Part shown: positions 11,506-52,485 of the stretch, one piece after another
Numbering within the stretch: the stretch's first letter is position 1
Layout: each line of letters opens with the position of its first letter
DNA from: Gemmatimonadota bacterium
Lineage (GTDB): Bacteria > Gemmatimonadota > Gemmatimonadetes > Gemmatimonadales > Gemmatimonadaceae
Assembly (NCBI GenBank): GCA_028287305.1
Contig: JAQBPX010000014.1
Location: forward strand, 62,001-126,000
DNA: 64,000 bases
Direction of reading: 5' to 3'
Translations under genes and position numbers: made by a program
Notes under the pieces: model-generated
Seen by the model: the letters and a program-made list of their open reading frames with translations, nothing else
The model's database searches: none
What the model was told of the DNA's origin: nothing

Positions 11506-11524
11506 GCCGCTCGCGCCGCGGCCG

Positions 11525-11636
11525 AACAGCTTGAGACACGGATTTCACGGGGCGCGCGGTTGGCGCGCCACACGGGTACTGCATCAGATCGGTGTGCCGC
11601 CGCAGGCGGCCAGTGAAATCCGTGTCGAAAGCTGTT
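11525..11636 (+). repeat. Nested inverted repeat, copy 1 (short-core form)
   Basis: Outer arms AACAGCTTGAGACACGG and its complement CCGTGTCGAAAGCTGTT enclose two side hairpins: GGCGCGC/GCGCGCC on the left, CCGCC/GGCGG on the right. The core here is only about 20 nt. It begins 19 bp after a plus-strand stop with the GCGCGCC hairpin nearest that gene. Confidence 0.85.
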
Positions 11637-11665
11637 GCCGTTGAGGCAGTTTCAGTGAAGACCAC

Positions 11666-11694: not shown

Positions 11695-11789
11695 AACGGG
11701 CCTCGCGCGCCATCCAGGTCCATCCACCCACGACCCAAGGAAATTCCAATCATCCCGGCCGAGAGCTCGTACACGAGCGCGCAACTGCC

Positions 11790-11840
11790 GTACCCGTGTG
11801 CCGCCGCAGGCGGCCAGTGAAATCCGTGTCGAAAGCTGTT
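11790..11840 (+). repeat. Nested inverted repeat, copy 2 (3' half only)
   Basis: Only the second half is present: CCCGTGTG, the CCGCC/GGCGG hairpin and CAGTGAAATCCGTGTC. No partner arm exists upstream, so this is a truncated copy or the scar of a tandem duplication; the flanking GTTGCCGTTGAGGCA matches copy 1. Confidence 0.75.
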
Positions 11841-11870
11841 GCCGTTGAGGCACTTTCAGTGACGGCGAAC

Positions 11871-16385: not shown

Positions 16386-16428
16386 TTCACGCAATCATGG
16401 ATTGAAACGACCCTTTCCCCCGGACCAC

Positions 16429-16950
16429 ATGCATTGTCGCTTTCTCGTGCTCGCCCTCTTCGCGTCGTCGGTGGCCCACGCACAGGCGGACACCGCCGCC
16501 TCGCATCGCGCGGCGGCCGAGCAACTGCTGGCGGTCACGAAGGCCGAGAAGATGGCGACGGACATGCAGTCGTCGATCTTCAAGACCATGCCGGCGATGG
16601 GCTCCGACTCCGCGGTCACGCGGCGGATGCAGGAACCGCTGCGCCAGTTCATGGCCGAGGAGATGAGCTTCGCGAAGATGAAGCCCGAGATGCTCGACGT
16701 GTACACGCAGGTGTTCACGGAGGCCGAGCTGCGGCAGATGGTGGACTTCTACGGCACGCCGCTGGGGCAGCTGATGCTGGACCGCATGCCGCTGGTGTTG
16801 CAGCGGTCGCAGGAGGTGGCGATGAAGCGCATCACCGCGGCGATGCCGAAGTTGCAGGTGATGATCCGGCAGTCGGTGCAGGATGAAGTCGCGCGGAGCC
16901 GGGCGGTGGCGAAGGACAAGCAGAAGGCACCCCCGAAGCCGCCCGCCTAG
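16429..16950 (+). CDS. Exported DUF2059 protein
   Basis: 173 residues from ATG 16429 (a TTG lies nine codons upstream). The signal peptide is MHCRFLVLALFASSVAHA. The mature protein is all-helical: AEQLLAVTKAEKMATDMQ, YTQVFTEAELRQMVDFYGTPLGQ and a long C-terminal helix. The E-L-x-x-M-V-x-F-Y-x-T/S-P-x-G motif is the hallmark of DUF2059, a periplasmic family of unknown biochemical role. The tail is Lys/Pro-rich. Its TAG stop (16948-16950) touches the first base of a dispersed repeat. Confidence 0.85.
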   Translation: MHCRFLVLALFASSVAHAQADTAASHRAAAEQLLAVTKAEKMATDMQSSIFKTMPAMGSDSAVTRRMQEPLRQFMAEEMSFAKMKPEMLDVYTQVFTEAELRQMVDFYGTPLGQLMLDRMPLVLQRSQEVAMKRITAAMPKLQVMIRQSVQDEVARSRAVAKDKQKAPPKPPA

Positions 16951-16979: not shown

Positions 16980-16985
16980 TACTGC

Positions 16986-17161
16986 AACTGCCTCGACACG
17001 GATTTCACTGGCCGCCTGCGGCGGCACACGGGTACGGCGATCGTGGCAGCAAAAGAATCGGCCCCGCTGGGCCGGGACGGGTTTTTTCGCTCTCTTGTCG
17101 TTGGCTGTACCCGTGTGGCGCGCCAAAGGCGCGCCCCGTGAAATCCGTGTCTCAAGCAGTT
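16986..17161 (-). repeat. Nested inverted repeat, copy 3 (full length)
   Basis: Arms AACTGCCTCGACACGG and CCGTGTCTCAAGCAGTT enclose the side hairpins CCGCC/GGCGG and GCGCGCC/GGCGCGC, an inner stem CACACGGGTAC/GTACCCGTGTG, and a core of about 70 nt. The core has a G+C hairpin followed by a run of six T on the plus strand (about 17066-17091), like an intrinsic terminator. It lies between convergent genes; the minus-strand DinB stop is inside its right end. Confidence 0.9.
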
Positions 17162-17670
17162 CGCCCCTGCGCTCGGGGCGACGGCCGATTGACGATCAAC
17201 GCCTCACTCGGCAGCCCGAAGATCGGCGGCGTGGGCACGCCGCGCAGGCCGAGGATCATGTACATCTGCCCGCGGTGATGCGCCTCGTGCTCGAACAGCG
17301 CGCGCAGCCACTTCCAGACCGGAATTTTCGCGTCGCCCGGCGTGAGGCACCGCTCCCCCATTCGCTCGTCGGTGAGCAGCGCGAACTGCGCGCGACTCTC
17401 GGCGTGCAGCGTGTCGTAATACTCGAGCGTGGCCTGCGCACCGGGCGCGAGGTTCGCGTCGTGCCCAGGATACTTGTTCGGCCGGTCGTGCACGGTCTCG
17501 GCGTACATCCAGCGCTCGATGCCGGCCAGGTGGCGCACCGAGTCGCCGAACGTGAACCTACCTGGACCCGGCAGCCACTCGAGGTCGTCCTCACCCGCCA
17601 GCAGCACGATGCGACGCGTCCGCGCGTGCACCTTGTCCAGGTAGTCGAGGAATTCCGTAACTGACGTCAT
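17152..17670 (-). CDS. DinB-family protein
   Basis: 172 residues from ATG 17670. It fits the DinB/YfiT four-helix-bundle metal-binding family: first helix EFLDYLDKVHARTRRIV, then the conserved histidine in DSVRHLAGIERWMY, and the paired histidines in FEHEAHHRGQMYMILGL. That arrangement is the usual H...HxxxH metal site. It is cytoplasmic and members act in thiol- or metal-dependent transfer reactions. The ATG overlaps the stop of the upstream membrane-protein gene (ATGA) and lies within a dispersed 30-nt repeat. Its stop is within a nested inverted repeat. Confidence 0.85.
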   Translation of the reverse strand: MTSVTEFLDYLDKVHARTRRIVLLAGEDDLEWLPGPGRFTFGDSVRHLAGIERWMYAETVHDRPNKYPGHDANLAPGAQATLEYYDTLHAESRAQFALLTDERMGERCLTPGDAKIPVWKWLRALFEHEAHHRGQMYMILGLRGVPTPPIFGLPSEALIVNRPSPRAQGRTA

Positions 17671-18033: not shown

Positions 18034-20523
18034 TCAGTTCCCTCCCGTGAGCGTCAACGTCGACCGGTGCTTCGTCGCCGCCTCGGCCGCCGTCTTGGGC
18101 GCGAACAGCGGCAGCAGCTCTCCCCTGCTCCACCCATCGATGCGATCGTGGTAGCGGTCGCTCGCGACGTTCCCCGACTGCCCGCCGGGATAGGTGCCCC
18201 ACGCCTTGAGCTCCGGGCCCAGGTCCACCACCATGCGCCAGCTGGAACCAATCCCGCTGCGCCCGCCACTCGGATTCAGCGTGCTCGGCCCACCCTGCAA
18301 CGACACCGGCGCCGACGCGAACGCCTTGATCGGCAGCAGGTGCTTGACGCTCAGCGTCTGGATCTTCTCCCAGCGCCATCCGTCACCCGGCTCGCCGTAC
18401 TGGTGCCGCACCGAGTCGAGCCCCGCCGCGAGCGCCGCGTCGATGATGTCGTCGCGCCGCTCCACGCGCTGCGCCGTGCGACGGTCATCCCACCACGTGT
18501 TCGACGAATCCTTCGTCAGCGTCCACAGCACCTCCTCGTCGGGCGTAGCGACGCGGCGACGCAGCGAACCGTGCGGGTCCACCGCCAGCTCATCCCACGC
18601 GCGGTCGCGCAACTCGCGCATCACCGCCTCGAACAGCACCGCGCGGGTGTTGTCGCGCGTGTACTCGCGATTCCATTCGCCGAGCAGCATCGCCGACTGT
18701 CGTGAGCGCTCGTCGTTGCTCGCCATCCCCACGCGCACGAGCAGCGGCGCGAAGCGCTCGGCCCGCTCACTCCCCGGGTCCGTCTGGAAGCGACGCATGG
18801 CGTCCACCGTGACCGATGAATCCGCGCGCAGCAGCCTGTTGATGCGCAGCGCGCGCCACGCGAAGAAGAGCCCGCCCCAGTATCCGCCCGTCGCCTTCAC
18901 GTCCACCGGCTGCTGGTTGGCGCTCGCCACGTACCCCTGGGCGGGATCTTTCGCCTGTGGCATCTGCTCGAGTGGAACGTACCCCTTCCATTCATTGGCG
19001 CTCGACGTGCCGTCGCGCAGCACGTTGCCGCTGCCGTCGCCGGCGCGTATCGGGAAGCGCCCCGTGGAACGAATCGAGATGTGCCCGCCGCGATCGGCCA
19101 CGAGCATGTTCTGCGCGGGCGCCATGTAATGCGCGCCCATCGCCGCCTGGAACTCGTCCACGTTCTTCGCGGTCGAGATCCCCTGGAACGCCGCGAGCTC
19201 GTCGCTCACTTCGTTCACCGTCCAGCGCATCGAGATCCACTCGCCGTGCTCGCGGCGCATCGGCCCGCGATGCGTGAACAGCAGCGTGTCCGTCGCGATC
19301 ACCTCGCCGAAGCGCCCCCTGTACTGCTCGATGCGCCGCTCGAGCGGGCGCCACGCGCCGTCCACCTGGTACTTCGCCGGCATCGCGTCATCATCCACCT
19401 TCTCGCGCCAGAAGTCGATGACGTCGGTCTCCGAGTTCGTGAACGTCCATGCGATGTCGCGGTTGAAGCCGATCACGATTTCGTTGCTCCCGGGAATCGT
19501 GACGCCGTAGACGTCGAGCGCGTTCGGCACCACCATGTGCGCCTCGTACCAGATGCTCGGGAGCGTGAGGTCGAGATGCGGATCACCCGCGAGCAGCGCG
19601 TGGTGGTCGGCGCTGCGCGATGGTGACACCGCCCAGTTGTTGCTCGCGAAGCCGCGCGCGCTGCTTGCGTCCAGCTCCTGCAGCTCGAGCGCCCGCTCGC
19701 GCGCCGGCATCAGCCCACGCAGCAGCGACGCGAGCGTCGCATTGTTGGTCTCGGGCGCTCCCGGCGCGACGAAGGCGATCATGTCCTCGCGCGGCGCCTT
19801 CTGCCCGTTCGGCTGGATGGGTTCGACGATCGGCGAGACGTCCGGAAAGATCGACGCCGCCGCCGCATTCCCCACGCGCGTCGCCGCCGCGGCGCGCTTC
19901 TCCTCGGGGATGATGTACGAGAGCGTCCACCCCATGCGGTTGAGCAGGTGCATCGCGTTGATCGGCGTCCACCGCTCCGGCTTCTTGCGGATCAGCCGGA
20001 ACTCGAGCGGCATGTCCTCGCGCGCCATCCCGTCGATGTATGCGTTGACGCCCTGCGAGTATTGCTCGATCGACGTCATCGTCGGCGTCCCCTTCAGCGC
20101 CTCGAGCTTGCGCTCGGCGGTGCGCGGGAGGCCGAGTCGTCGCATCTCGCGATCGAGCGGCAGCGCCGCCGCCCCCGCAACCTCGGTAAGACGCCCACTC
20201 GCCGCCATCGTCTGCAGGTACATCTGGAAGAGCCGGTCGCGCGCGACGACGTACCCCAGCGCGCGATACGCGTCCCCCGTGGTGGGGGCGAAGATGTGTG
20301 GCACGGCGCGGTCGTCGTACTCGACTTTCGTCTCGGCGCTCAGTCCCGGAATGTGCGCGCTGCTGTGGTCGGGCAGGCTCGACGTGCGACCCAGCGCCCA
20401 CACGCCGCGCGCCGGCTCGAGGAAGGGTCCGAGCGCGGGAGCGGGGCCGATTGGCTTGGAGCCTACATAGGCGCCGGCGGCGAGGACTACGGCGGCCAGG
20501 GCGGTTCGGAGGGGGGAAGGCAT
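18034..20523 (-). CDS. Penicillin acylase family N-terminal nucleophile hydrolase
   Basis: 829 residues from ATG 20523. An N-terminal hydrophobic segment (MPSPLRTALAAVVLAAGAYVG) suggests export. It follows S45 peptidase order: alpha-chain blocks VPHIFAPTTGDAYRALGYVVARDRLF and GRLTEVAG, a spacer, then the autocatalytic Ser (residue 294) starting the beta chain in ASNNWAVSP. Later blocks are LAGDPHLDLTLPSIWYEAH, IGFNRDIAWTFTN, ASANQQPV and a C-terminal GYWGGLFFAWRALRI segment. It would be cleaved in the periplasm to alpha and beta chains and hydrolyse an amide such as an acyl-homoserine lactone or beta-lactam side chain. The substrate is unknown. Confidence 0.93.
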   Translation of the reverse strand: MPSPLRTALAAVVLAAGAYVGSKPIGPAPALGPFLEPARGVWALGRTSSLPDHSSAHIPGLSAETKVEYDDRAVPHIFAPTTGDAYRALGYVVARDRLFQMYLQTMAASGRLTEVAGAAALPLDREMRRLGLPRTAERKLEALKGTPTMTSIEQYSQGVNAYIDGMAREDMPLEFRLIRKKPERWTPINAMHLLNRMGWTLSYIIPEEKRAAAATRVGNAAAASIFPDVSPIVEPIQPNGQKAPREDMIAFVAPGAPETNNATLASLLRGLMPARERALELQELDASSARGFASNNWAVSPSRSADHHALLAGDPHLDLTLPSIWYEAHMVVPNALDVYGVTIPGSNEIVIGFNRDIAWTFTNSETDVIDFWREKVDDDAMPAKYQVDGAWRPLERRIEQYRGRFGEVIATDTLLFTHRGPMRREHGEWISMRWTVNEVSDELAAFQGISTAKNVDEFQAAMGAHYMAPAQNMLVADRGGHISIRSTGRFPIRAGDGSGNVLRDGTSSANEWKGYVPLEQMPQAKDPAQGYVASANQQPVDVKATGGYWGGLFFAWRALRINRLLRADSSVTVDAMRRFQTDPGSERAERFAPLLVRVGMASNDERSRQSAMLLGEWNREYTRDNTRAVLFEAVMRELRDRAWDELAVDPHGSLRRRVATPDEEVLWTLTKDSSNTWWDDRRTAQRVERRDDIIDAALAAGLDSVRHQYGEPGDGWRWEKIQTLSVKHLLPIKAFASAPVSLQGGPSTLNPSGGRSGIGSSWRMVVDLGPELKAWGTYPGGQSGNVASDRYHDRIDGWSRGELLPLFAPKTAAEAATKHRSTLTLTGGN

Positions 20524-20570
20524 TGGGGGCAAAGGTGGGCCTCGGAGAGAGGGCGTGCAACGGCGGGGCT

Positions 20571-20601
20571 GTCATCCTGGGCGCAGCGAGGGATCTGCCG
20601 T
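20571..20601 (+). repeat. 30-nt dispersed repeat, copy 5
   Basis: GTCATCCTGGGCGCAGCG..GATCTGCCGT, 47 bp upstream of the penicillin acylase start and next to the nested repeat region at 20623-21060. Confidence 0.8.
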
Positions 20602-20622
20602 CGTAGTCTGCCGCTCTATCGT

Positions 20623-21060
20623 TCCGGCAGGACGGTGGTCTGTGGTCTGTGGCTCGGACAGGATGCAGTAGGCGGGCGCCTGCAGGCGCCCGCCTTCGTC
20701 ATTTGTTCGCGGTCCACATGTTCGAGGGCGCGGCGTGCATGCCGATACCCCGGGTACGCTTGCCAGAAGCCTGAAGCCGGAAGCTCGAGCACCGACAAGG
20801 AAAGCGCTGCGCGCTTCGTCATGCGTTCGCCGTGAACATGTCCACGGATAACGAGGCGGCGGCCGCAGGCCGCCGCGTACCGCATCAGTGTTCGAGCTTC
20901 AGGCGCCAGGCTTCAGGCAACCCGAACTCGGTATCGGCCAGCCGACCGCGAACTCGAAACGATCAACACAAAACCCAACGACAAAGGCGGGCGCCCACAG
21001 GCGCCCGCCTTCCGCATCATGTCCGGGCCACAGACCACAGGCCACAGACCTGCAGGACCG
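20623..21060. repeat. Large imperfect inverted-repeat element with internal palindromes
   Basis: A 438-nt stretch with no coding sign. Its ends (20623-20694 and 20986-21060) are imperfect inverted copies of each other; each carries a GC-rich palindrome (20671-20694 is a perfect 24-bp palindrome around CTGCAG; 20986-21009 is its near copy). Inside are two direct copies of TTCGTCATN2GTTCGC..ACATGT (about 20695 and 20815), a further palindrome at 20851-20876, and an inverted pair around GCCTGAAGCCGGAAGCTCGAG (20769-20791 / 20889-20918). With the flanking 30-nt repeats it fills the 576-bp gap between penicillin acylase and the gene at 21100. Confidence 0.7.
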
Positions 21061-21086
21061 ATAAAGGGGCCAACCACAACGACCAA

Positions 21087-21112
21087 CCCCTCGCGCCGCT
21101 CAGGATGACGGC
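21087..21112 (-). repeat. 30-nt dispersed repeat, copy 6
   Basis: Minus-strand copy (TCGCGCCGCTCAGGATGACG on plus). It supplies the TGA stop and the last residues of the gene at 21100-21489. Confidence 0.7.
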
Positions 21113-24034: not shown

Positions 24035-24058
24035 GCCGTCACTGAAACGACCAAACAG

Positions 24059-24235
24059 CAACTGCTTTCGACACGGATTCCACTGGCCGCCTGCGGCGGC
24101 TCACCGATACGGCGCTCGTGGCAGCAAAAGCTTCATCCTGCGGGGCGAGGATGACTTTTTCTTTTTACGTGGATGGCTGGACCCGTGTGGCGCGCCGAAG
24201 GCGCGCCCCGTGAAATCCGTGTCTCAATGCAGTTG
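24059..24235 (-). repeat. Nested inverted repeat, copy 4 (full length)
   Basis: Same plan as copy 3: outer arms, CCGCC/GGCGG and GCGCGCC/GGCGCGC side hairpins, inner stem weakened by changes (CACCGATAC opposite ACCCGTGTG). The core has CATCC..GGATG followed by T-rich sequence (about 24135-24169), terminator-like on the plus strand. It ends 3 bp before the minus-strand DUF1569 stop, between convergent genes. Confidence 0.9.
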
Positions 24236-24238
24236 CCG

Positions 24239-24682
24239 CTACAGCCCAAACTGCCTCAAATGATGATCCGCGTGCTTGTACCCCAGCGCGCCCCATCCCT
24301 TGGCCCCGATCTTCCCGAACACGGGATGCTCCGGCCACTCGCGCGTCGGCTTCTCCGTGCCGAAGCGCTCCACTGACTTCACGCAGTCGTGCAGCGCGTT
24401 GATGAACTCGCCCTGCCCCTGGTGCACGAGCTGCGGCGCGGTGGGCGCGCCCTTCGGAAAGGGCAGGACGTAGATGATCAGCTGCTTGAGGGGAAAGAAG
24501 CGGATCGGCAGCTTCTTGCCCGGCACGCGCAGCTCGCCGAACGCCATGTCGTAGTTGCGGGCCATGTGCCACGCCATCCCGCTCGCATTCATCTTGCCCC
24601 ACCGCGCCGGCGTGTCCGGGGTCAGCTTCTCGAAGCGCGCCACGATCTCCTGCCGCGCCTCACGGTGCCAGAGCGACTTCAT
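24239..24682 (-). CDS. DUF1569 protein
   Basis: 147 residues beginning MKSLWHREARQEIVARFEKL. The layout matches the DUF1569 branch of the DinB-like superfamily: a helical bundle with histidine in ASGMAWHMARNYDMAFGE, the segment PQLVHQGQGEFINALHDCV, and a C-terminal HADHHLRQFGL histidine cluster likely to bind metal. Its ATG overlaps the stop of the upstream ferric-reductase-like gene (ATGA, 24679-24682). Biochemical function unknown. Confidence 0.82.
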   Translation of the reverse strand: MKSLWHREARQEIVARFEKLTPDTPARWGKMNASGMAWHMARNYDMAFGELRVPGKKLPIRFFPLKQLIIYVLPFPKGAPTAPQLVHQGQGEFINALHDCVKSVERFGTEKPTREWPEHPVFGKIGAKGWGALGYKHADHHLRQFGL

Positions 24683-30101: not shown

Positions 30102-31652
30102 TCACGGTGCTCTGACCAACTCGGCCGCCGTTTTAGCCGAGCCGCCCAACAGAACAGCCCGCTGCATCACAGGATCCCGTGAGAGTCTCCGCCTCAGCTC
30201 CTCCTCCGGCCCGGATACATACCGCGCGACGACATCCCCAATCAGCTGGTCGAGCGCGACCCCGCCCTTCCCGAGTGCACCCGCATCCAGCACGATCCCG
30301 CGCGCCTTGAGCCGCACCAGCACCGAATCCCTCATCGGCACCGGAGCTCCCCCGCGCGCCTTGAGAGCAAGCGCATACGACGTAAGCACGTCACGAAACA
30401 CCCCGACCCTCGTGCCAAGCGCGTGCACCAGGTCGAGCTGCGCCTGCGAGTATGCGGAATCTTTCACGACAACGTCCGGCACGATGCCGCCCCCGCCGAG
30501 TACCGTGCGGCCGCCGCTGGTCTTGAACTTCGGCCGAGCGCTGTCCGTCGCGGCACCCGTCGCCACGCTGTCGCCCGCGTCATCGCTCGACGCGTGCTTC
30601 CGATCGATGCTCCGGCCACTCGGCGTGTACCAGCGCGCGGTGGTGAGCTTGAGCGCCCCGCCCGCGATGTTGAACACGTTCTGCGCGCTTCCCTTCCCGT
30701 ACGTCGTGCCACCAACGAGCAGCGCGCGATCGTGATCCTGCAGCGCGCCGGCCACGATCTCGCTCGCGCTCGCGCTGCCGCTGTCCACCAGCACCACGAG
30801 CGGCATCGTCGCCCACTGCTGCGGCGCCTTGTCGCTGTAGCTCACGCCACTCGCCGCGTCGCGGCCGCGCATGCTCACGATCCTGTCGCCGGCGTTCAGG
30901 AACAGGTCGGCGACCTTCACGCCCTGGTCGAGCAGTCCACCCGGGTCGCCGCGCAGGTCGAGCACCAGCGAGCGCATCCCCGCGCGGGAGAGCGAGTCCA
31001 CCGCCTTCGCGAGCTCGTCGCCGGAGTTCTCGCTGAACACCGTGAGGTCGACGTAACCCACTCCATTGCCGACGAGCATCGCGTGCTGCACGCCGCCGAA
31101 GTGGATCTCGCGGCGCGCGAGCGTGAACGGGATCGGCTTCTCGACGCCGGGGCGCTCGACGTCGAGGGTCACGCTCGACCCGGCCGAGCCGCGCATGACG
31201 TGCAGCGCCTCGTCGCTCGTCATGCCGTGCGTGGGCTTCCCGTCGATTTTCGTCACGCGATCGCCCAGCTGGATCCCGGCATCGCGCGCCGCGCCGCCGG
31301 GAAGCACCTGCACGATGGTGATCCATCCGTCGCGAATGTCGATCTGGATGCCGACGCCGGCGTAGTGTCCGCTGGTCGTCTCATCCAGCCGGCGCAGGCG
31401 ATCGCCCGTGAGGTACACGCTGTACGGGTCGTGCAGCTCCGACAACATGCCGTCGACCGTCTTGCGGTAGAGTGCGCTGTCGCTGACGGTGTCCACGTAC
31501 CGCTCGCGCACGAGCTGCGTGACCTGCTCGTAGAGCTTCGCCCCGGCGACGCTCTGCTCCCCCGCGGCGCGAGCCGGCTTCTGCAAAAACAGCCCGCCCG
31601 CCATGACGCATGCCGTGAACAGCGCCCCGGCGGTGATCGTGCGCGATTTCAT
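30102..31652 (-). CDS. C-terminal processing peptidase (S41 family, PDZ)
   Basis: 516 residues from ATG 31652, which gives the signal peptide MKSRTITAGALFTACVMAG; a longer in-frame start would run into repeat DNA. An N-terminal helical part (YEQVTQLVRERYVDT) is followed by a PDZ domain (about 95-165: VGIQIDIRDGWITIVQVLPGG) and the S41 protease core. That core has the strand LVLDLRGDPGGLLDQ, nucleophile Ser in VDSGSASASEIVAGAL and general-base Lys in GTTYGKGSAQ. It would trim or degrade periplasmic proteins. It is the last gene of the tmk block, after a divergent nested inverted repeat. Confidence 0.93.
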   Translation of the reverse strand: MKSRTITAGALFTACVMAGGLFLQKPARAAGEQSVAGAKLYEQVTQLVRERYVDTVSDSALYRKTVDGMLSELHDPYSVYLTGDRLRRLDETTSGHYAGVGIQIDIRDGWITIVQVLPGGAARDAGIQLGDRVTKIDGKPTHGMTSDEALHVMRGSAGSSVTLDVERPGVEKPIPFTLARREIHFGGVQHAMLVGNGVGYVDLTVFSENSGDELAKAVDSLSRAGMRSLVLDLRGDPGGLLDQGVKVADLFLNAGDRIVSMRGRDAASGVSYSDKAPQQWATMPLVVLVDSGSASASEIVAGALQDHDRALLVGGTTYGKGSAQNVFNIAGGALKLTTARWYTPSGRSIDRKHASSDDAGDSVATGAATDSARPKFKTSGGRTVLGGGGIVPDVVVKDSAYSQAQLDLVHALGTRVGVFRDVLTSYALALKARGGAPVPMRDSVLVRLKARGIVLDAGALGKGGVALDQLIGDVVARYVSGPEEELRRRLSRDPVMQRAVLLGGSAKTAAELVRAP

Positions 31653-31712
31653 GCTTCCCCAACTAGGAAGAAGCGCGCCAAGGGGTTCTCTCGGCGGGCA
31701 CTGGAAAAAACC

Positions 31713-31831
31713 CAACTGCAACAGACTTGAGCCACGGGTTTCACTGCGCCGCTGCGCGGCGAACACCGTTAAAGCTCTTGCCAGCAGTGTCGCGGCGAAG
31801 CCGCCCGTGTAACCCGTGGCAAAGGCAGTTG
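31713..31831 (-). repeat. Nested inverted repeat, copy 5 (divergent)
   Basis: Outer arms CAACTGCAACAGACTTGAG..GGGTTTCAC and TAACCCGTGGCAAAGGCAGTTG, with side hairpins GCCGC/GCGGC and CGCGGC/GCCGC. The sequence differs from copies 3/4/6/7 but compensating changes keep the arms paired. It lies within the minus-strand operon between tmk and the protease. Confidence 0.7.
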
Positions 31832-31857
31832 CTTTTTGGTTTTTTCAGTGCCCGGCG

Positions 31858-37820: not shown

Positions 37821-37849
37821 GCCCCACAGCACTGAAACTGCCTTAACTG

Positions 37850-38022
37850 CAACTGCCTTAGACACGGATTTCACTGGCCGCCTGCGGCGGCACACGGGTA
37901 CGGCGATCGTGGCAGCAAAAGCTTCACTTGCTGGGCCACAATGATTTTTCCTTTTTGTGGATGGTTAGATCAGTGTGGCGCGCCGCAGGCGCGCCCCGTG
38001 AAATCCGTGTCACAAGCAGTTG
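37850..38022 (-). repeat. Nested inverted repeat, copy 6 (full length)
   Basis: Outer arms CAACTGCCTTAGACACGG and CCGTGTCACAAGCAGTTG; CCGCC/GGCGG and GCGCGCC/GGCGCGC side hairpins; inner stem CACACGGGTAC partly decayed on the right. The core holds GTGGCAGCAA..TTGCTGGGCCAC and a T-rich run. It ends 3 bp before the minus-strand stop at 38026; convergent neighbours. Confidence 0.9.
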
Positions 38023-38025
38023 CAG

Positions 38026-39348
38026 TTACTGCCCCATCCCTGCCCCACTCCGGAACGGGCGCACGCGCAGGAACACCATCGCGCCCAACGGCGTGCGCGA
38101 TCCATACGCCGAGACCAGTGCCTGCGGCACCATGTCAACGGTGCCCATCGCGCCGATGCCGAGCGTCCCCTTGCCGAAGCGCGCCAGCTCCCGGATCACG
38201 CCGAGCGAGGCAGCGCCCACGTCGTAGGTCGCATCCCCGGCCACCGACAGGTCTTCCCCGCTCTTCTGCACCCACTCGGCCCTCGTGAACACCGTGTTGC
38301 GCGCATCCAGCACCGCTTCGCTCTCACCAAGCAGCGAGTGCGACATCCCGGGTTGCGTCGAGTGAGTGTTGGCTCCCCAGATCAGCGCCGACGACCACTG
38401 TCCCTGCTCACCTATCGCGCGCCCATAGAGTGCCGACGCCGTGACGCGATGCATGGACTCGCCTGGATTGAGCGCCTCCGGGCTCTTCAGGAATCCATAC
38501 CCACCCGTGAAGCTCCAGTTCGCCGACGGATTGTACGTCGCGCGCCCCGAGTACGAGTCGAGCCTGATGGGATCGAAGTTCCACCGGTGCTGGTCCGGCT
38601 CGCGCCCGTTGAACACCGACCCCTCGAGCTTGAACGTGTGCGTGAACAGTCCCGCGCTGAGCACGCCGAAGGAGATGTGCGTCGCGTCCTGCCAGTGATG
38701 CGTGATCGGCGCCGCGGGATTGTCCATCGCGCTCGGCCGGTGCATGAACGCCACGGGGCCGAGTGCGGGCTCGCCTGAGGGTGCCGCGTAGAGCATGACG
38801 CCAAGCGAGCTGGTGATCGGTCGCTCGTAGAGCGCGCTCAGCTCCATGAAGAAGTCGTGCGGGTGCTGGCGGTCGTGGAGTGGCTGGCCGTCGTACGCCT
38901 CCCCCGATTGCAGCAGGAGCGGATATCCCTTCGGCGTGACGGTCAGCGCGTCGAGGCTGAGCATGGTGCGCGCCTGCACGCGTCCACCCGCGAGCGCGTG
39001 CGACGCCATGAGCATCATCCAGTTGAGCGAACCCACCTGGCTGTCGCCGCGCGGCCCGCCCTGATGGTCGTACTGCAGGAACGCGAAGCCGTGGCCCGTG
39101 ACGTCCCAACCCTTCGGCGCGTGGAAGTAGAGCGACGGAATCGGCGCGGCGTCGGGCACCCACGTCGTGCCGGAGCCCATGCGATCCATGGAAACGCCGA
39201 GTGGGTCCGGCGCCTGCATCCGCATGCCGGACATGTCGCCCATGCCGGGCATGTCCTTCATTGACGTATCCTGCTGCGCGCGCGCCGGGCGAATGGGCGC
39301 CAGGGGCACGAGCGCGACGAGCGCGATCGTGATCGATCGAAACTTCAT
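38026..39348 (-). CDS. Outer-membrane-like protein with Met-rich N-terminus
   Basis: 440 residues. The signal peptide (MKFRSITIALVALVPLAPIRPARA) is followed by a methionine-rich segment (MKDMPGMGDMSGMRM) of the sort that binds copper or silver. The remainder is rich in aromatic beta strands (GFAFLQYDHQGGPRG, NWSFTGGYGFLKSPEAL, AMVFLRVRPF), consistent with an outer-membrane beta barrel. HDRQHPHDFFMEL and ITHHWQDATHISFG add histidines. It follows the small Cys/Met/His protein gene (77 bp away) on the same strand. A role in metal efflux or handling is inferred, not shown. Confidence 0.7.
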   Translation of the reverse strand: MKFRSITIALVALVPLAPIRPARAQQDTSMKDMPGMGDMSGMRMQAPDPLGVSMDRMGSGTTWVPDAAPIPSLYFHAPKGWDVTGHGFAFLQYDHQGGPRGDSQVGSLNWMMLMASHALAGGRVQARTMLSLDALTVTPKGYPLLLQSGEAYDGQPLHDRQHPHDFFMELSALYERPITSSLGVMLYAAPSGEPALGPVAFMHRPSAMDNPAAPITHHWQDATHISFGVLSAGLFTHTFKLEGSVFNGREPDQHRWNFDPIRLDSYSGRATYNPSANWSFTGGYGFLKSPEALNPGESMHRVTASALYGRAIGEQGQWSSALIWGANTHSTQPGMSHSLLGESEAVLDARNTVFTRAEWVQKSGEDLSVAGDATYDVGAASLGVIRELARFGKGTLGIGAMGTVDMVPQALVSAYGSRTPLGAMVFLRVRPFRSGAGMGQ

Positions 39349-45816: not shown

Positions 45817-46224
45817 ATGTCCCTGACCTCGACCGTGCAAGGGTGCGTGCTTGCCTCGACGCTCCTCGCCGCGACCTCCTGCGGCCTGCTGCCGAGCGGC
45901 GACTGTGCCCTTTCAGCAGTCTCGTCGATCATCGCGCGAACCGTGGACCAATCCACTGGAGCAGCGATCACTTCGCGTCTTACGCTGGTGACGAAGATCA
46001 ACAACGTCATCGTTGATTCGGTTTCGGTCGAGGCGCCGTCGAATGGGACGATCGCAAGCCACCGGATCGACTCTGGCACCGGCTATGTCGTGTTCATCAG
46101 TGCCGCCGGATATACGACCGAGACGCGCGGAGGCGTCGAAGTAACGGGCACGCGGTGTGGCGGAGCGACAACCTATTTCGTCGTGCCGATGCGACGGTCG
46201 GCGGTTGCCAGCAGGGTACCTTGA
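45817..46224 (+). CDS. Small lipoprotein, carboxypeptidase-regulatory-like (family B, distant)
   Basis: 135 residues. Signal MSLTSTVQGCVLASTLLAATSC with a lipobox-like end. Two cysteines follow (GLLPSGDC). The domain IIARTVDQSTGAAITSRLTL, IASHRIDSGTGYVVFISAAGYTTETRGGVEV and CGGATTYFVVPMRR follows the same order as the lipoproteins at 43345 and 61139. It marks the left side of the region of small plus-strand genes. Confidence 0.65.
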   Translation: MSLTSTVQGCVLASTLLAATSCGLLPSGDCALSAVSSIIARTVDQSTGAAITSRLTLVTKINNVIVDSVSVEAPSNGTIASHRIDSGTGYVVFISAAGYTTETRGGVEVTGTRCGGATTYFVVPMRRSAVASRVP

Positions 46225-46243
46225 TGGCGCCGTAGCAACCTCG

Positions 46244-46678
46244 ATGTATGTCATGAAGTGGATCGGCTGGATGGGCACCTTGCACCGGAGCGATCAGGCG
46301 CTGATTCTAGGCGCCATTCTCCTCTTCTGTGTGCTTGCGCCGGCGTCGCTCCAGCGAGGTGGTCGCCGGGCACTCGCGGCGCTCTGGCTTTTCGTGCTTG
46401 CGCCCCTGGTAGTCGTTGGCTGGCGACGCTGGGCGATTAGCCACTCTCCGGAAAGCGCACGACTGCCCCTGGCTGACATCGCCTTCTACGTGCTACCGGT
46501 GGGTGGCGCGCTTGCCCTTGCGACAATCGCGCTGGTGTGGGCAGCAGGACAGGGGCGGTCGCGTACGGTCCAACACGTGGCTACGCTCGTCTCCGCGTAT
46601 GCACCGTTGCCCATCGTGTTCGCAGTATCCGCGTGGCTCGTCCTCGATATCTACATGGTGACCGGGGGCTTTATCTAG
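46244..46678 (+). CDS. Four-helix membrane protein
   Basis: 144 residues from ATG 46244 (MYVMKWIGWMGTLHRSDQA). Four hydrophobic helices: about 17-35, 43-60, 78-98 and 116-140. There are few charges in the helices and no motif. It is 20 bp downstream of the family B lipoprotein and could be cotranscribed with it. No family recognised. Topology suggests an inner-membrane protein. Confidence 0.6.
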   Translation: MYVMKWIGWMGTLHRSDQALILGAILLFCVLAPASLQRGGRRALAALWLFVLAPLVVVGWRRWAISHSPESARLPLADIAFYVLPVGGALALATIALVWAAGQGRSRTVQHVATLVSAYAPLPIVFAVSAWLVLDIYMVTGGFI

Positions 46679-46721
46679 AGATCTTCCTGGGCACCAGAGC
46701 GAGTTGACCGACAACTTCATC

Positions 46722-46751
46722 CTTCTGCCCGTCGGTTCTGGCGGGCAGAAG
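46722..46751. other. Perfect 10-bp hairpin
   Basis: CTTCTGCCCG and its exact complement CGGGCAGAAG flank a 10-nt loop. No T-run follows, so it is not a classic terminator. It lies in the 218-bp non-coding gap before the first cassette-like gene. Confidence 0.6.
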
Positions 46752-46770
46752 AACCCGCCGTTTGTTCGCC

Positions 46771-46810
46771 GTCCTGCTGAGCAAGGCGAAGGATCTGCGG
46801 TCTGCCGTTA
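46771..46810 (+). repeat. 30-nt dispersed repeat, copy 13 (long form)
   Basis: GTCCTGCTGAGCAAGGCG..GGATCTGCGGTCTGCCGTTA, continuing CGTAGCGTCTCACA as at 45754. It is the last copy before the cassette region; none is seen from 46811 to the right edge. Confidence 0.75.
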
Positions 46811-46896
46811 CGTAGCGTCTCACACTTGCGGAGGCGATTGCATCAGACGCAGCCTGAAGAGTATTCTGGAATGCGGTGTTACCACGAGGAGAACGA

Positions 46897-47115
46897 ATGA
46901 ACGAGGCCAGTCGTGCGCGCGGTATCAAGATAGCATTCGTCCTGAGCGTAATTCTTCTCGTGAGTCAGCTGGCATTTACAGCCATGGGCGATGGCAGTTG
47001 GAAGCGATGGCTGCTCTTAGGGAGTCCTCTTTGCAACGCGACGCTCTTTGGCCTGCTGCTCCGAGACCGCGCGTCGGGTGAACGCGACGCTGCCAGTGAT
47101 GCACCGGCTGTCTAA
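46897..47115 (+). CDS. Small membrane protein (72 aa), cassette-like
   Basis: Starts at ATG 46897 behind a good ribosome site (CGAGGAGAACGA). It has two hydrophobic helices (about 11-28 and 37-52, IKIAFVLSVILLVSQLAFT and WLLLGSPLCNATLFGLLL) and a charged tail. No family recognised. First small gene after the last dispersed 30-nt repeat. Its stop is followed by TTCGCAATTGCTAAC, which has attC-like words but no clear site. Confidence 0.6.
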   Translation: MNEASRARGIKIAFVLSVILLVSQLAFTAMGDGSWKRWLLLGSPLCNATLFGLLLRDRASGERDAASDAPAV

Positions 47116-47153
47116 TTCGCAATTGCTAACTCCCGAAGCATAGTTCAGCGAAA

Positions 47154-47687
47154 ATGGAATTCGACTTCGAGTACGAGAATACTCCCGCGCTTCACGGCCG
47201 GGTCGTCGCTGCGATATCCAGGCACGCCAGGGTCACGCGTCGGCTCTGGTGGCTGGTTTTCGGGCTCCCGGTCGTCATGACGCTCTCGAAGGCTCTCGTA
47301 GAGGGCAACCGAACGAGCGTCGCTGTCTTTCTTGGCGTCGTCGCGCCGTGGTGGATCATTTATCCTGCGCTATTCTGGCTGTTCCTCAAATGGTCTACGC
47401 GTCGCGTGGCGGCGCGCTCGATTCAGCAGGATGCGACCCATCAAGGCCTGCAGAGCCGGCGCCTCGATGACGCCGGGTTGCATATCAGGAATGCGGTGCT
47501 CAGCGCTGACGTCTCGTGGGGTGCGCTGCAGAGTGCAGTTGAGACGCCGGAATTCTTCCTGATCTTCCAGAATCCAGGGTGCGGCTACGCGCTTCCGAAG
47601 GCAGCACTAGTTGGAGCCGAGCCTGCGGATGTACGATCGTTCCTTGCGTCGAAGTTGCACGACAAGGCCAAGCTCGGGGCCGATTGA
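47154..47687 (+). CDS. YcxB-like membrane protein
   Basis: 177 residues. Opening MEFDFEYENTPALHGRVVAA is followed by two helices (about 30-48 and 56-78, LWWLVFGLPVVMTLSKAL and VFLGVVAPWWIIYPALFWLF). The cytoplasmic C-terminal domain has SWGALQSAVETPEFFLIFQNPGCGYALPKAALV, the signature of the YcxB-like C-terminal domain. Function unknown. Such genes are frequent in mobile or variable regions. Confidence 0.75.
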   Translation: MEFDFEYENTPALHGRVVAAISRHARVTRRLWWLVFGLPVVMTLSKALVEGNRTSVAVFLGVVAPWWIIYPALFWLFLKWSTRRVAARSIQQDATHQGLQSRRLDDAGLHIRNAVLSADVSWGALQSAVETPEFFLIFQNPGCGYALPKAALVGAEPADVRSFLASKLHDKAKLGAD

Positions 47688-47756
47688 GTGGGTCGTCCGT
47701 TCGACTTCACGCGTTGCAACAGCTCTTCAGTATTTCTTGCATCCGAGGAAGTGTCC

Positions 47757-47987
47757 ATGACCAAGCGCCTATTCCGCTGCATCGTACTCCTCAATGCGTG
47801 GGCACTCGTATCGTTTGGGATGCATGTTTCCAGGGCAACGAGCATTCATGATGCGGGTGGCACCCTGCAGGCGATTGACTGGCTCACGCTCGCCTGGTTG
47901 ACCGTATTGAGCATTTGCGGAACGGTGGCACTGCTTCAAGCTCCACGATTGGATGTCGAGAGCGATATGCATGCGCCTGCTGCATAA
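47757..47987 (+). CDS. Small two-helix membrane protein (76 aa), cassette-like
   Basis: From ATG 47757 (MTKRLFRCIVLLNAWALVSF). Helices about 5-22 and 40-60, with an acidic tail (DVESDMHAPAA). Its TAA stop lies in GCATAAC, directly followed by AAGC and GTTAGAT, which read as fused R boxes of an attC lacking its hairpin. No family recognised. Confidence 0.6.
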   Translation: MTKRLFRCIVLLNAWALVSFGMHVSRATSIHDAGGTLQAIDWLTLAWLTVLSICGTVALLQAPRLDVESDMHAPAA

Positions 47988-47999
47988 CAAGCGTTAGAT
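47982..47999 (+). other. Collapsed attC-like site
   Basis: GCATAAC (R'' form RYYYAAC with one mismatch) is separated by only AAGC from GTTAGAT (R' form GTTRRRY). AAGCGTTAGAT equals the 3' end of classical cassettes. The palindromic middle is missing. Confidence 0.4.
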
Positions 48000-48012
48000 A
48001 GCCACGGTCTTC

Positions 48013-48264
48013 ATGAGTATAGAAGAGTCGACCTTCAAAGCCCTGGAGCGTGAGTACGAGCGAGTGTTCGGGTCGGCCCCCGAAGGCGCCAAACACTTCC
48101 TCCTTCTTCCTCTCGTTGGTCCTGAGGATGCGCTCGCTTTTTTCCGCACGGTGCCGAGCGAGACCCCGTTCGACCAGCTGCTGCCGTTAGCCTCTGCCTA
48201 TCGAAGAGAGCATCCGGTGAATGTCCACGCGCTCGAGAGTGCAGACCCCGAAGCGGCTATCTAA
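48013..48264 (+). CDS. Small soluble protein (83 aa), cassette-like
   Basis: Starts MSIEESTFKALEREYERVFG. A first helix rich in acidic and aromatic residues, then LPLVGPEDALAFFRTVP and FDQLLPLASAYRREHP. No membrane segment. Its stop codon (48262-48264) is inside the R'' box of the best attC site, the standard arrangement for an integron cassette. Family not recognised. Confidence 0.65.
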   Translation: MSIEESTFKALEREYERVFGSAPEGAKHFLLLPLVGPEDALAFFRTVPSETPFDQLLPLASAYRREHPVNVHALESADPEAAI

Positions 48265-48359
48265 CGTGCGCTGCAGCAGACGAAGGATCGCTGTTGATTG
48301 GTGGTCGCTTCGCGACCACTCTTATGAGAATCCTTCGCAGCTGAGCTCGGGCGATAGAT
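48259..48359 (+). other. attC site (best-formed)
   Basis: R'' ATCTAAC, then L'' GCTGCAGC pairing with L' GCTGAGC and leaving one extrahelical G, as in known attC hairpins. An outer stem GACGAAGGAT/ATCCTTCGC and a terminal hairpin GTGGTCG/CGACCAC follow. R' is GATAGAT, one base off GTTRRRY. It contains the stop of the preceding gene. Confidence 0.75.
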
Positions 48360-48387
48360 TCCCACAACCATCTCCGAACACATCCCA

Positions 48388-48678
48388 GTGGCTTCGTCTT
48401 TAGACGACCTGCGTTTGCTCCTGGATGACTTCGTCGCGGGCGCGCCGTTCTGGCCATTCTGGAACGCATTCATGGACCTTTTGGACGAATTCGAGCCGGA
48501 GCGCGAACTCTCGAGCGCGGGACAGCAAGCCTACGACGACCTCTGTGACCTCGTCTACATGGGCGCGGCGAACCCCGTCTCGGCGGCGGAGCGGGCGGAC
48601 GGGATTATTCCGGAGGACGAGCTTCGGAAGCGAATCAGTCAGATCCGACTTGAGACCGCCAATGGGAGGATGATCTAG
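48388..48678 (+). CDS. Small acidic soluble protein (96 aa), cassette-borne
   Basis: From GTG 48388, 28 bp after the attC. MASSLDDLRLLLDDFVAGAP begins a helical acidic protein (SAGQQAYDDLCDLVYMGAANP and AADRI-like ending ELRKRISQIRLETANG). No membrane segment and no motif I know. It ends in the R'' box of the next attC-like site (ATCTAGC). Confidence 0.65.
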   Translation: MASSLDDLRLLLDDFVAGAPFWPFWNAFMDLLDEFEPERELSSAGQQAYDDLCDLVYMGAANPVSAAERADGIIPEDELRKRISQIRLETANGRMI

Positions 48679-48766
48679 CGGGCGCTGCAGCAGACGAACG
48701 ATCGCCATTGGTTGGGGGCGACCGCGCCGCTTTTCCTCTTGGTACCCTTCGCAACTGGACTTAAAC
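48673..48766 (+). other. attC-like site
   Basis: Starts ATCTAGC and shares GCGCTGCAGCAGACGAA with 48259 and 49713; ends CTTCGCAACTGGACTTAAAC. The R' form is CTTAAAC, so one position of the G^TT cleavage triplet is changed. Pairing is looser than in the first site. Confidence 0.55.
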
Positions 48767-48806
48767 GACGTGCCGCAACAGGGCATTCCTGATTAACCCG
48801 CGTAGA

Positions 48807-49277
48807 ATGCGACCTATCGCCATCGTAGCTGCCATCGCGTTCCTATCGTCACTACGCTCGGACACTCCATCAGTCCGCCTGGTCAGTATGCTCATCGCGA
48901 CGTGCTTGGTCGCGGGAACAGCTACTCTCTGGCGCCGTCGGCGGTCGGCTCCCGCTATCCCTCACTCCGTTTCATTTGGTGAAGATGAGATCACGCACAG
49001 GGGACCTGACGGCGTCGAGTCTATCTCATGGAGCGATCTGTCGGGCATTGATGTAGTCACCACGTCCGACGGCCCGTGGAGTGAGGATGTGTTTCTCCTG
49101 CTCCTCGATCAAGCAACTCGGGTACGATGCACCATTCCACAAGGAAGCTTGGGCTTTCAGCCGCTGATTGAACGGGCTCTGTCACTTCCGCAGTTTGATT
49201 CTCCCTCCTTCACCCGAGCGATGGGAAGCACCTCGAACCGTCGCTTCACGTGCTGGCGCCGCTCGCCAGTGGTATAA
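48807..49277 (+). CDS. Membrane-anchored protein with PH-like domain, cassette-borne
   Basis: 156 residues. One or two N-terminal helices (about 3-18 and 26-42) precede a domain reading SVSFGEDEITHRGPDGVESISWSDL, VVTTSDGPWSEDVFLLLLD and PQGSLGFQPLIERALSLPQFDS, then AMGSTSNRRFTCWRR. This order (G-P-W/F..EDVF..L, then F..AM.ST.N..F.CW) recurs in small bacterial proteins of unknown function. The fold may be PH-like. No adjacent toxin gene is visible. Confidence 0.7.
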   Translation: MRPIAIVAAIAFLSSLRSDTPSVRLVSMLIATCLVAGTATLWRRRRSAPAIPHSVSFGEDEITHRGPDGVESISWSDLSGIDVVTTSDGPWSEDVFLLLLDQATRVRCTIPQGSLGFQPLIERALSLPQFDSPSFTRAMGSTSNRRFTCWRRSPVV

Positions 49278-49305
49278 CGTTCGTCAGGCGGCGCATCAGG
49301 ATGAA

Positions 49306-49719
49306 ATGACGATTTGGCGGAGGGTGATGTGGGGCGTACAGCAGACGCTGTGGGGGGCAGCCGCCGCGTCGTTATTTGCTGCTGTGGCGTATCGTGCCGA
49401 CGACAAGCCAGCATCCGGACAACCAGCGCTGAGCACCGTGTGCCTCTGGTATGTTCTCAGCGCTGTCGCGGGCGGCGTCATGCTCGGCATTCTCAGGCCG
49501 CTGGCAAGTTCCCCGCTCGGCTTGGGCCTCGTTGGATTCGTGACTGCACTCCCTATCATTGCGGGTTTACTCTTTCTCTCACCGTTTGGTGCTCCGATCC
49601 AGATTGATGTGGTCTCAGTGTGGGCCGTGATTGGCCTCTCGGCGGTATTCGGCCCTGCGACCGCGGCGTATGTCACGATTCGCAATCGGCAGCGAAACTC
49701 CTTCCACGGCGACGCCTAG
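49306..49719 (+). CDS. Four-helix membrane protein, cassette-borne
   Basis: 137 residues from ATG 49306 (MTIWRRVMWGVQQTLWGAAA). An earlier ATG at 49301 is out of frame and followed by a stop. Helices about 15-30, 42-62, 72-92 and 98-120. No family recognised. Its stop is in the R'' box (GCCTAGC) of the next attC-like site. Confidence 0.65.
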   Translation: MTIWRRVMWGVQQTLWGAAAASLFAAVAYRADDKPASGQPALSTVCLWYVLSAVAGGVMLGILRPLASSPLGLGLVGFVTALPIIAGLLFLSPFGAPIQIDVVSVWAVIGLSAVFGPATAAYVTIRNRQRNSFHGDA

Positions 49720-49814
49720 CGTGCGCTGCAGCAGACGAACGTTCGCTATTGATTGGAGGCCGCTGCGCGGCCACTCCCATTTGATTCCTTCGCAGCTCCG
49801 CTTGGGCATTCGGT
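49713..49814 (+). other. attC-like site
   Basis: GCCTAGC R'' box, shared 5' stretch GCGCTGCAGCAGACGAA, a central hairpin GAGGCCGC/GCGGCC and 3' part CTTCGCAGCTCCGCTTGGGC with R' ATTCGGT, which is degraded. Same 5' end as 48259. Confidence 0.6.
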
Positions 49815-49835
49815 CACCGCAGCGTGAGGCGTAGT

Positions 49836-50990
49836 ATGCATTTGCGCGCGACTGTACGACTCGCGCAGACACTTGCGATTGTCGTCCCCTCGCTTTTTGT
49901 GGGCGGACCGAGCAAGCTGCGCGCGCAGAATTGGCGGCCAGTCGACCGAGTGTTGTCGCGGATGGTTGACAGCGGTGTTGAGTCGATTTCCCCCCGTCGA
50001 GTTACGCGCCTTTGGATCGCGTTTGATGGTGCGATCACAGCTGCGTTGAATGCGCCGATGTCACTTGACTCGCTTAACCGCATTTTGATCGACCGGCCTG
50101 GCTATGAAGGACCTTCGCCCGGGCAAGCCACGCTCCGGTTGCCGAACGCGACGTTCTGGCGTGAGCTGCCGCGCGACGCGCCAGACTACTTCATCGCAGC
50201 CATCGATAGCTCCGCGACGACACTGTTATCTGTCGTGCACAGCCCGTCAGTGAACGGTCCAAGCCACCTGAGCGTGTTTCAGCGGCGACATGGCCGGTGG
50301 ACTCGAACCGGTAGCCTTTCATCGCCGCGGTCGCTGTCAGCGAATCGGATATCGATCAAGGATGGCCGCATCCTCCTGATAACGCTGGAAACGTGGACCC
50401 GAGCCGACGGCAGCGAGAGTTGGGTGAAGCTGTGGCGACTGAGCGGAGGACAGCTGGCCCGTATTGAGCGCAATGACACCACTCAGCTGCAGGACGCGGA
50501 TGTCGAACCGAAAGACGGCGCTGTCGTGATCCGTGTCTCGCAGTTTCCTCGATACGTGGGCGCCTGCACGATGTGCACGCGACTGTATTATGAGTATTCG
50601 TTTAGCGCCTTGGGAACCGGTATCCGCGAACGCCGGGAATCCCTCAATCCCTGGGCCTCTCTGGTTGATTCGCTCTATTCGCTAACAGCCAAAGGCAACA
50701 TGAGCGAGGCCAAGGCGCTTTTGCTCCCGCGAGTCTCGCTCAGTTCGGTGTTAGGGAAGACTCCCCAGTTTGCGTCGGACACCGGCGATTTTCGCGCAGG
50801 TACCGGGCACGCGGACATTGCAGTCGGAGCATTACAGGACTGCGCGCGATACTGGCGATTCCGCTCTGTACGACAGCCAAACGGTCAATGGCGAATCGCA
50901 GGGGTGCGCCCCGGACGGTGGACCGGTGACTCCATCGTCTTCGATCAACAGGCATCACCGATCCGGCAACCCAAGGGTCGATGCAGCTGA
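49836..50990 (+). CDS. Exported hypothetical protein (384 aa), cassette-borne
   Basis: From ATG 49836 (MHLRATVRLAQTLAIVVPSL); a GTG at 49824 adds four residues. A signal peptide likely ends near LRAQ. The mature protein is beta-rich with repeated strand pairs (APDYFIAAIDSSATTLLSVVHS, LSVFQRRHGRWTRTGSL, GRILLITLETWTRAD). The C-terminal FRSVRQPNGQWRIAGV resembles the W-rich strands of exported sensor-like proteins. Unusually long for a cassette protein. No family recognised. Confidence 0.65.
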   Translation: MHLRATVRLAQTLAIVVPSLFVGGPSKLRAQNWRPVDRVLSRMVDSGVESISPRRVTRLWIAFDGAITAALNAPMSLDSLNRILIDRPGYEGPSPGQATLRLPNATFWRELPRDAPDYFIAAIDSSATTLLSVVHSPSVNGPSHLSVFQRRHGRWTRTGSLSSPRSLSANRISIKDGRILLITLETWTRADGSESWVKLWRLSGGQLARIERNDTTQLQDADVEPKDGAVVIRVSQFPRYVGACTMCTRLYYEYSFSALGTGIRERRESLNPWASLVDSLYSLTAKGNMSEAKALLLPRVSLSSVLGKTPQFASDTGDFRAGTGHADIAVGALQDCARYWRFRSVRQPNGQWRIAGVRPGRWTGDSIVFDQQASPIRQPKGRCS

Positions 50991-51067: not shown

Positions 51068-51081
51068 TGCTGCACAAATCA

Positions 51082-51827: not shown

Positions 51828-51833
51828 CGCGCG

Positions 51834-51925: not shown

Positions 51926-51941
51926 TGCAATAGAGGGTCTC

Positions 51942-52484: not shown

Positions 52485-52485
52485 T

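Follow-up and report, generated by a model that had tools for sequence, protein, structure and literature searches.

Palindromic elements dispersed in a Gemmatimonadota genome and the GxxExxY genes carried by some of their copies

We found that the inverted repeats of the 64-kb window (the whole stretch of DNA analysed, i.e., bases 62001-126000 of contig 12 in a 4.37-Mb genome of 39 contigs and 100% completeness) belong to a structured family with fixed ends, which is dispersed between genes and in which one gene-bearing copy has the two distinct ends that also mark gene-less copies. The repeats of the window are probably non-autonomous, MITE/REPIN-like copies of a palindromic element whose coding form carries a GxxExxY gene, the product of which would mobilise them. 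GxxExxY as the mover appears the most economical reading, because the gene lies inside the element, is flanked by motif arrays throughout the phylum, and motif type and protein clade segregate together.

Anatomy and genomic distribution of the family

Within the window we counted 13 occurrences of the arm motif GMCACGGRTNNCAC, where shuffles predict 0.07 (Table 1). All copies listed by the first-pass annotation are present in the sequence, and its description of copy 16986-17161 is accurate, with outer arms, two hairpins (CCGCC-TGC-GGCGG and GCGCGCC-TTT... type) and an inner CACACGGGTAC/GTACCCGTGTG stem. Other parts of that description needed adjustment. The five copies regarded as full all exist, but the one at 11525 is short (92 bp between motif ends), and only four are of the long type; the inner stem said to be shared is perfect in 16986-17161, yet the inner arms differ in the copies at 24059 and 37850. 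The copy at 31713, taken for a divergent one, belongs to a second subfamily and has kept both its termini. Copy 16981-17161 has lost its outermost CACTGAAAC ends and is flanked by convergent genes encoding a DUF2059 protein (16402-16950, +) and a DinB-like protein (17152-17670, -). As for the half copy, its portion 11796-11862 duplicates 11592-11658 (99%).

Table 1. Coordinates of palindromic copies and their parts in the window
Feature	Position	Strand	Remarks
Arm-motif pairs	11535/11626, 16995/17151, 24070/24223, 31731/31820, 37861/38011, 58725/58875		plus lone half 11817-11830
Short-type copy, subfamily GACACGGATT	11524-11657	-	motifs 11535-11626; right terminus GTTTCAGTG kept
Half copy	11783-11862	-	long-type centre remnants upstream
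Long-type copy (first-pass annotation: 16986-17161)	16981-17161	+	motif-to-motif 16995-17151
Left arm motif GACACGGATTTCAC of copy 16981-17161	16995-17008	+
Left hairpin GCCGCC-TGC-GGCGGC of copy 16981-17161	17011-17025	+	position read from sequence
Left inner motif ACACGGGTACG of copy 16981-17161	17026-17036	+	pairs with right inner arm
Variable centre of copy 16981-17161	17059-17091	.	terminator-like hairpin on - strand (CGGCCCAGCGGGGCCG ATTCTTTT); T-run on + strand
Right arm motif GACACGGATTTCAC of copy 16981-17161	17138-17151	-
Long-type copy	24040-24250	+	motifs 24070-24223; left terminus CACTGAAAC; convergent genes around; right end approximate
Short-type copy, subfamily GCCACGGGTT	31699-31850	.	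152 bp; motifs 31731-31820; both termini kept
Long-type copy	37830-38035	+	motifs 37861-38011; left terminus CACTGAAAC; convergent genes around; right end approximate
Long-type copy	58701-58887	+	motifs 58725-58875; two - strand genes around

Genome-wide, the arm motif has 106 exact matches vs. 8 for the reversed pattern, and nearly always a match on the + strand is followed by one on the - strand, forming convergent pairs. We estimate the family at about 50 inverted-pair copies, from which 47 distinct pairs were extracted, along with 11 lone halves. The motif-to-motif distances fall into classes of 83-100 bp (mostly 91), 140-174 bp (about 150) and 561-562 bp, and no arm-motif pair enclosing more than approximately 565 bp was seen in the genome. 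The pair of about 565 bp (L214) consists of two adjoining copies, one of which has decayed in the way that dead mobile DNA would. The family falls into two main subfamilies, GACACGGATT and GCCACGGGTT, with few mixed copies; the commonest class is that of the 91-bp GCCACGGGTT copies, and the copy at 31713 belongs to this subfamily. Among 17 copies sharing the 91-bp core, the median identity over the core is 91% and the best pair reaches 98%. Similarity among these 17 copies ends abruptly, with CACTGAAAC at one terminus and GTTTCAGTG at the opposite terminus, beyond which the flanks differ.

The unit thus delimited by CACTGAAAC...GTTTCAGTG measures 152-155 bp in gene-less copies retaining both ends, or 213-221 bp in two long ones. 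The outer repeat continues past the arm via AACTGCAACTGC-type sequence up to the terminal CACTGAAAC/GTTTCAGTG, and the two ends are regularly distinct, end A being CACTGAAACTGCCTCAACTGCAACTGCCTTGA and end B CACTGAAACAACCAAACAGCAACAGCCTTGA. In each half-unit, the GMCACGGRTTTCAC motif is accompanied by a local hairpin and by a motif similar to CACGGGTAC. Target-site duplications are absent, as flanks of 2-9 nt in 14 both-ended pairs show no excess identity over permuted flanks. A DNA search with a whole 191-bp copy matched only the copy's own genome among the relatives searched, which included no second species of the genus in which an empty site might show; a word search across genome contigs returned ten scattered single matches in unrelated taxa, of which the one inspected resembled coding sequence matched by chance.

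A second dispersed repeat, GTCATCCTGAGCGAAGCGAGGGATCTGCCGT, has 10 copies in the window (16945, 17661, 20566, 23998, 37784, 41172, 42166, 45666, 45710 and 46766) and often lies a few bases beyond the CACTGAAAC end of a palindromic element, on either side. This repeat may be a site that the palindromic element prefers as a target, or else an element in its own right that frequently neighbours the palindromic one.

Hairpins, arms and gene context

The hairpin of each half-unit sits directly behind the arm motif and has a loop that is mostly TGC or TTC, while 92 half-units comprise 30 distinct stem sequences. Since the hairpins vary in both length and sequence, pairing was tested directly by arm shuffling, in which the 3' hairpin arms were redistributed within length classes. 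The 34 distinct hairpins have 97% Watson-Crick pairs vs. 60% (sd 4%) after shuffling; therefore, the hairpins are kept as structures. The outer arms behave differently: within-copy agreement amounts to 14.86 of 16 matches vs. 15.01 expected from between-copy comparisons in one subfamily (p = 0.93), and to 14.13 vs. 14.58 in the other (p = 1.0). The outer motif is thus conserved as a sequence, like a candidate binding site. Selection on structure, which the first-pass annotation deduced from the arms, is not supported for the long outer arms; it is the local hairpins that covary strongly. The inner arms agree within copies only weakly (p = 0.09 and 0.55 in the two subfamilies). The two-sided arm change in the copy at 31713, which had been read as compensatory, is the GCCACGGGTT signature common to at least 17 closely similar copies; this copy is no compensatory mutant, because the outer arms do not covary beyond the subfamily difference.

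With RNAalifold, only the outer 13 pairs were recovered from 29 full copies, and the two-sided changes at two of these pairs were rejected as covariation, being differences between the subfamilies. The ability of the nested inverted repeats to form a four-way junction was borne out, in that the minimum-energy DNA fold is four-way in 23/44 copies; it is a single long hairpin in 18/44. A supposed rule that the two hairpins of one copy must differ was also dropped, as none of 24 distinct combinations is identical where 0.9 would be expected, which is not significant. The Rfam search suggested in the first-pass annotation gave no match above the gathering score.

With genes assigned by a simple hexamer gene caller around 44 copies, the flanking genes are convergent for 23 copies, tandem for 19 and divergent for 2, and no copy falls within a called gene. 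Neighbouring genes of the window with no element between them, a small background, are convergent in 7/62 cases and divergent in 11/62 (p = 5e-6 and 0.04, respectively, vs. the copies). Long copies occupy convergent positions more often than short ones (14/19 vs. 9/25, p = 0.017), and the centres of several long copies (window 24133-24154, L043, L048, L056) are composed of an A-run, a strong hairpin and a T-run, i.e., they are terminator-like on both strands. Perhaps some copies are used as bidirectional 3'-end structures. REPs prefer the same gene gaps (PMC3733652), so the gene-gap bias alone is no proof of function.

GxxExxY genes inside the element and in the phylum

The two pairs of 561-562 bp (C4:628463-629023, L054; C12:190281-190842, L050) each contain one GxxExxY gene, matching TIGR04256 with 99.8 and 109.8 bits (cut-off 35). 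A GACACGGATT pair encloses one of these genes and a GCCACGGGTT pair the other; their products are sisters on the protein tree (support 100/99). The L050 copy retains both termini, totals 624 bp, and has one end A and one end B as in the short copies. The dN/dS of 0.19 between the two genes indicates purifying selection, and both retain the conserved G-x-x-E-x-x-Y, D and E-x-K; in an alignment of 12 GxxExxY sequences, the invariant residues include E89, D128, E138, K140, Q152 and Y156. An E, D, E-x-K, Q pattern is expected of RecB-type PD-(D/E)XK nucleases. Given this pattern of invariant residues and its Pfam name, PDDEXK_3, GxxExxY would be a PD-(D/E)XK-like putative nuclease; no solved structure was findable by sequence, and no report of nuclease or transposition activity was found in the literature searched. 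The gene is carried by only 2 of about 48 pairs, and of the seven GxxExxY genes in the genome, five are not part of the palindrome family. Two of these five, at G000:C28:10224-10547 (L124) and G000:C4:607445-607765 (L125), have other inverted repeats (CGCGGACGAACTGAAGCGGA and GCCGCGGACTAGCGCGGACTAG, respectively) and are possibly low-copy elements of the same class.

Across the genome and its phylum, an inverted repeat spanning the gene with a score of at least 14 was detected at 29/45 GxxExxY loci, vs. 6/225 permuted upstream/downstream pairs and 0/26 P-II loci of the same relatives at score 14; the remaining 16 of the 45 genes lack a flanking repeat above the threshold. Only the observed P-II values served as a control, because permuted P-II scores were inflated, probably by orthologous flanks in opposite orientations. 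The flanking repeats are mostly arrays of 8-10-bp CRCGGA-type motifs (CACGGAGA, CACAGAGG, CGCGGAGG, CGCGGACTA, CACGGATGTT). That of G200, GCCACGGGTTTTCACGGGTTTTCACGGGTAC, aligns with the GCCACGGGTTTCACTG-hairpin-CACGGGTAC of the window, which suggests that the window half-unit may be the same three-motif array with a hairpin inserted between motifs two and three. In G143, CACGGAT motifs directly flank the GxxExxY gene (C15:30715 and 31193 around 30798-31130); certain genomes of genera g12, g19 and g49 likewise have tandem CACGGAT motifs in multiple copies. Within the Gemmatimonadaceae, the family of the genome under study, G015 carries GxxExxY at C3:437285-437614. At two loci (L137 and L146, in G063 and G064), the inverted arms flanking GxxExxY are approximately 160 nt long and each arm looks like a full palindrome, as if the gene were placed between two gene-less copies. 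On the viral contig IMGVR_UViG_3300032770_000220 (L239), too, the words CATTCACCACAA and CACGAAGGAA are found in inverted orientation on the two sides of a gene for a GxxExxY relative.

Facing motif pairs are multicopy in 12/78 relatives, and 11 of those 12 possess GxxExxY (Fisher p = 0.0004); within the family, GxxExxY is present in 11/11 genomes with multicopy motif palindromes vs. 20/35 others (p = 0.006). G056, from the same order, has about 55 matches to the CACGGAGG motif, many as facing pairs, with no GxxExxY match; its gene-bearing copy was possibly lost or is missing from the assembly. The base following CRCGGA is a pyrimidine in 7/8 cases in the protein clade of the genome under study and a purine in 14/15 in the other clade (p = 0.0002, the motif classes having been assigned after looking at the repeats and not blind), with three changes of motif type on the protein tree.

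Many bacterial genomes have genes annotated as GxxExxY, a family on which we found next to no literature, and palindromes of the CACGGAG/CACAGAG type are multicopy in several relatives, so far without explanation. The two are tied to each other: genes lie within palindromes, motif type follows the clade, and gene-less copies abound in several gene-bearing genomes. Tentatively, with a probability that we would place slightly short of even, GxxExxY proteins are the mobilising nucleases of a widespread, unnamed class of miniature mobile elements. Such elements would be bounded by 8-10-bp CRCGGA-type motifs in inverted arrays and would disperse as palindromes lacking the gene, and the window family would be a Gemmatimonadaceae variant with a sequence-variable hairpin in each end. 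If GxxExxY does move the palindromes, miniature mobile DNA could arise via a PD-(D/E)XK-like protein, with no DDE or Y1 transposase involved, and the palindromes would offer a direct test of GxxExxY function.

As for the mechanism, the gene-carrying form of approximately 624 bp would consist of one GxxExxY gene between two inverted half-units. The protein may recognise the motifs and hairpins, probably when the DNA is extruded as a cruciform or single strand, and cut at these sites, and copying would then proceed via repair or replication without target duplication; the palindromic anatomy, the missing target duplication and the nuclease-like residues are the reasons for proposing cutting and repair. 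Copies, which lie between genes and for the most part not near promoters, would be retained chiefly downstream of genes, where the long type could serve as a bidirectional terminator or 3'-end structure.

Known systems, rival explanations and neighbouring repeats

ERIC and NEMIS (Correia) are palindromic, dispersed, intergenic repeats. With these, as with MITEs and IRU, the window family has in common its palindromic, dispersed and intergenic copies of 100-220 bp, terminal inverted repeats, subfamilies and the lack of a long reading frame, but it differs in having no target duplication and two sequence-variable local hairpins, and its coding relatives hold GxxExxY and not a DDE transposase. 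A MITE with defined ends, named by the first-pass annotation as the contrary case, is thus close to what we find, except that the coding relative has GxxExxY and no recognised transposase. We consider it unlikely, though worth serious attention, that the family is an ordinary MITE whose CACTGAAAC ends are recognised by the DDE-type transposase of an insertion sequence, GxxExxY being a passenger in two copies. Sharp terminal inverted repeats, fixed size and high-identity copies would be accounted for in this way, as would the location of five of seven GxxExxY genes outside the family; yet a target duplication is lacking, no arm-motif pair enclosing more than about 565 bp was seen, and a passenger would neither be expected between related motif arrays in genus after genus nor give any reason for motif type tracking protein clade. 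Even if GxxExxY is only a passenger, the repeats of the window would still be accounted for as a mobile family and not as a new riboregulator. A functional RNA, i.e., a bidirectional terminator or mRNA 3'-end stabiliser under selection with dispersal as a secondary matter, appears improbable. Such an RNA would suit the 23 convergent and 2 divergent positions among 44 copies, the more frequent convergence of long copies, the A-run/hairpin/T-run layout, in both directions, of several centres and the covarying hairpins. However, Rfam gave no match, the outer arms do not covary within subfamilies, promoter avoidance yields the same gene-gap bias, and defined ends, sequence subfamilies, and truncated or decayed and gene-bearing copies fit a mobile element.

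The statement of the first-pass annotation that no named element has this plan was too strong, since a REPIN, too, is made of two hairpin-bearing units in inverted orientation, with two alternative folds, a long hairpin and a "clover," proposed for it (PMC3116915). Given this REPIN-like plan, the palindrome family is not categorically new. Both consist of two conserved units in inverted orientation, separated by a spacer and with one hairpin apiece; both have a predicted clover or long-hairpin fold, are extragenic and often 3' of genes, leave lone halves as remnants and have a putative mobiliser gene in the same genome. It is nevertheless highly improbable that this is a true REP/REPIN system, in which the half-unit would be a REP moved as single-stranded DNA by a RAYT (Y1 transposase), even though inverted hairpin-bearing pairs, clover fold, extragenic location, lack of target duplication (PMC3116915, PMC3733652) and a predominance of tandem or convergent gene gaps would all agree with it. 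The Y1_Tnp profile (PF01797) has no match in the 4.37-Mb genome, which thus lacks a RAYT/Y1 gene, while the same profile finds matches in 5 control genomes. The hairpins of the window are flanked by CAC(T/G)G and ACACGG/GACACTG, without the GTAG or CGTC tag defined for the hairpin foot of REPs (PMC3733652). Furthermore, the outer ends of the window family are defined and located about 31 bp beyond each unit, and the linked protein, carried within the gene-bearing copies, is GxxExxY (PD-(D/E)XK-like).

Another comparison concerns the intervening sequences of 23S rRNA, which differ from the window family in being located in 23S rRNA and in encoding a protein unrelated to GxxExxY, and which, to our knowledge, are not known to be dispersed as gene-less palindromes. 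In turn, they are described as selfish elements of a few hundred bp whose sole gene, S23p, codes for a small four-helix-bundle protein (PMC4990558), which parallels the coding form described here. The genes within two copies are members of the GxxExxY family (TIGR04256/PF13366 PDDEXK_3), but this family is annotated as proteins only. In the papers searched, we met no statement that places GxxExxY within a mobile element bounded by motif arrays. Nor did we find, in the open-access papers searched, this putative mobiliser, such termini or a link between GxxExxY and palindromes.

Other repeats of the window include a 136-nt inverted repeat (20568-20703 and 20977-21112, 80% complementary, with 273 nt between the arms), which is positioned just outside a penicillin-amidase gene (18034-20523) and is not a copy of the palindrome family. 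In the region 46100-57300, three repeats of about 92 nt (CTAGCGTGCGCTGCAGCAGACGAACG...CCTTCGCAGCTCCGCTTGGGC), at 48261-48352, 48675-48766 and 49716-49807, separate small, mostly same-strand ORFs and look like the attC sites of a chromosomal integron cassette array, which we note as a resemblance only.
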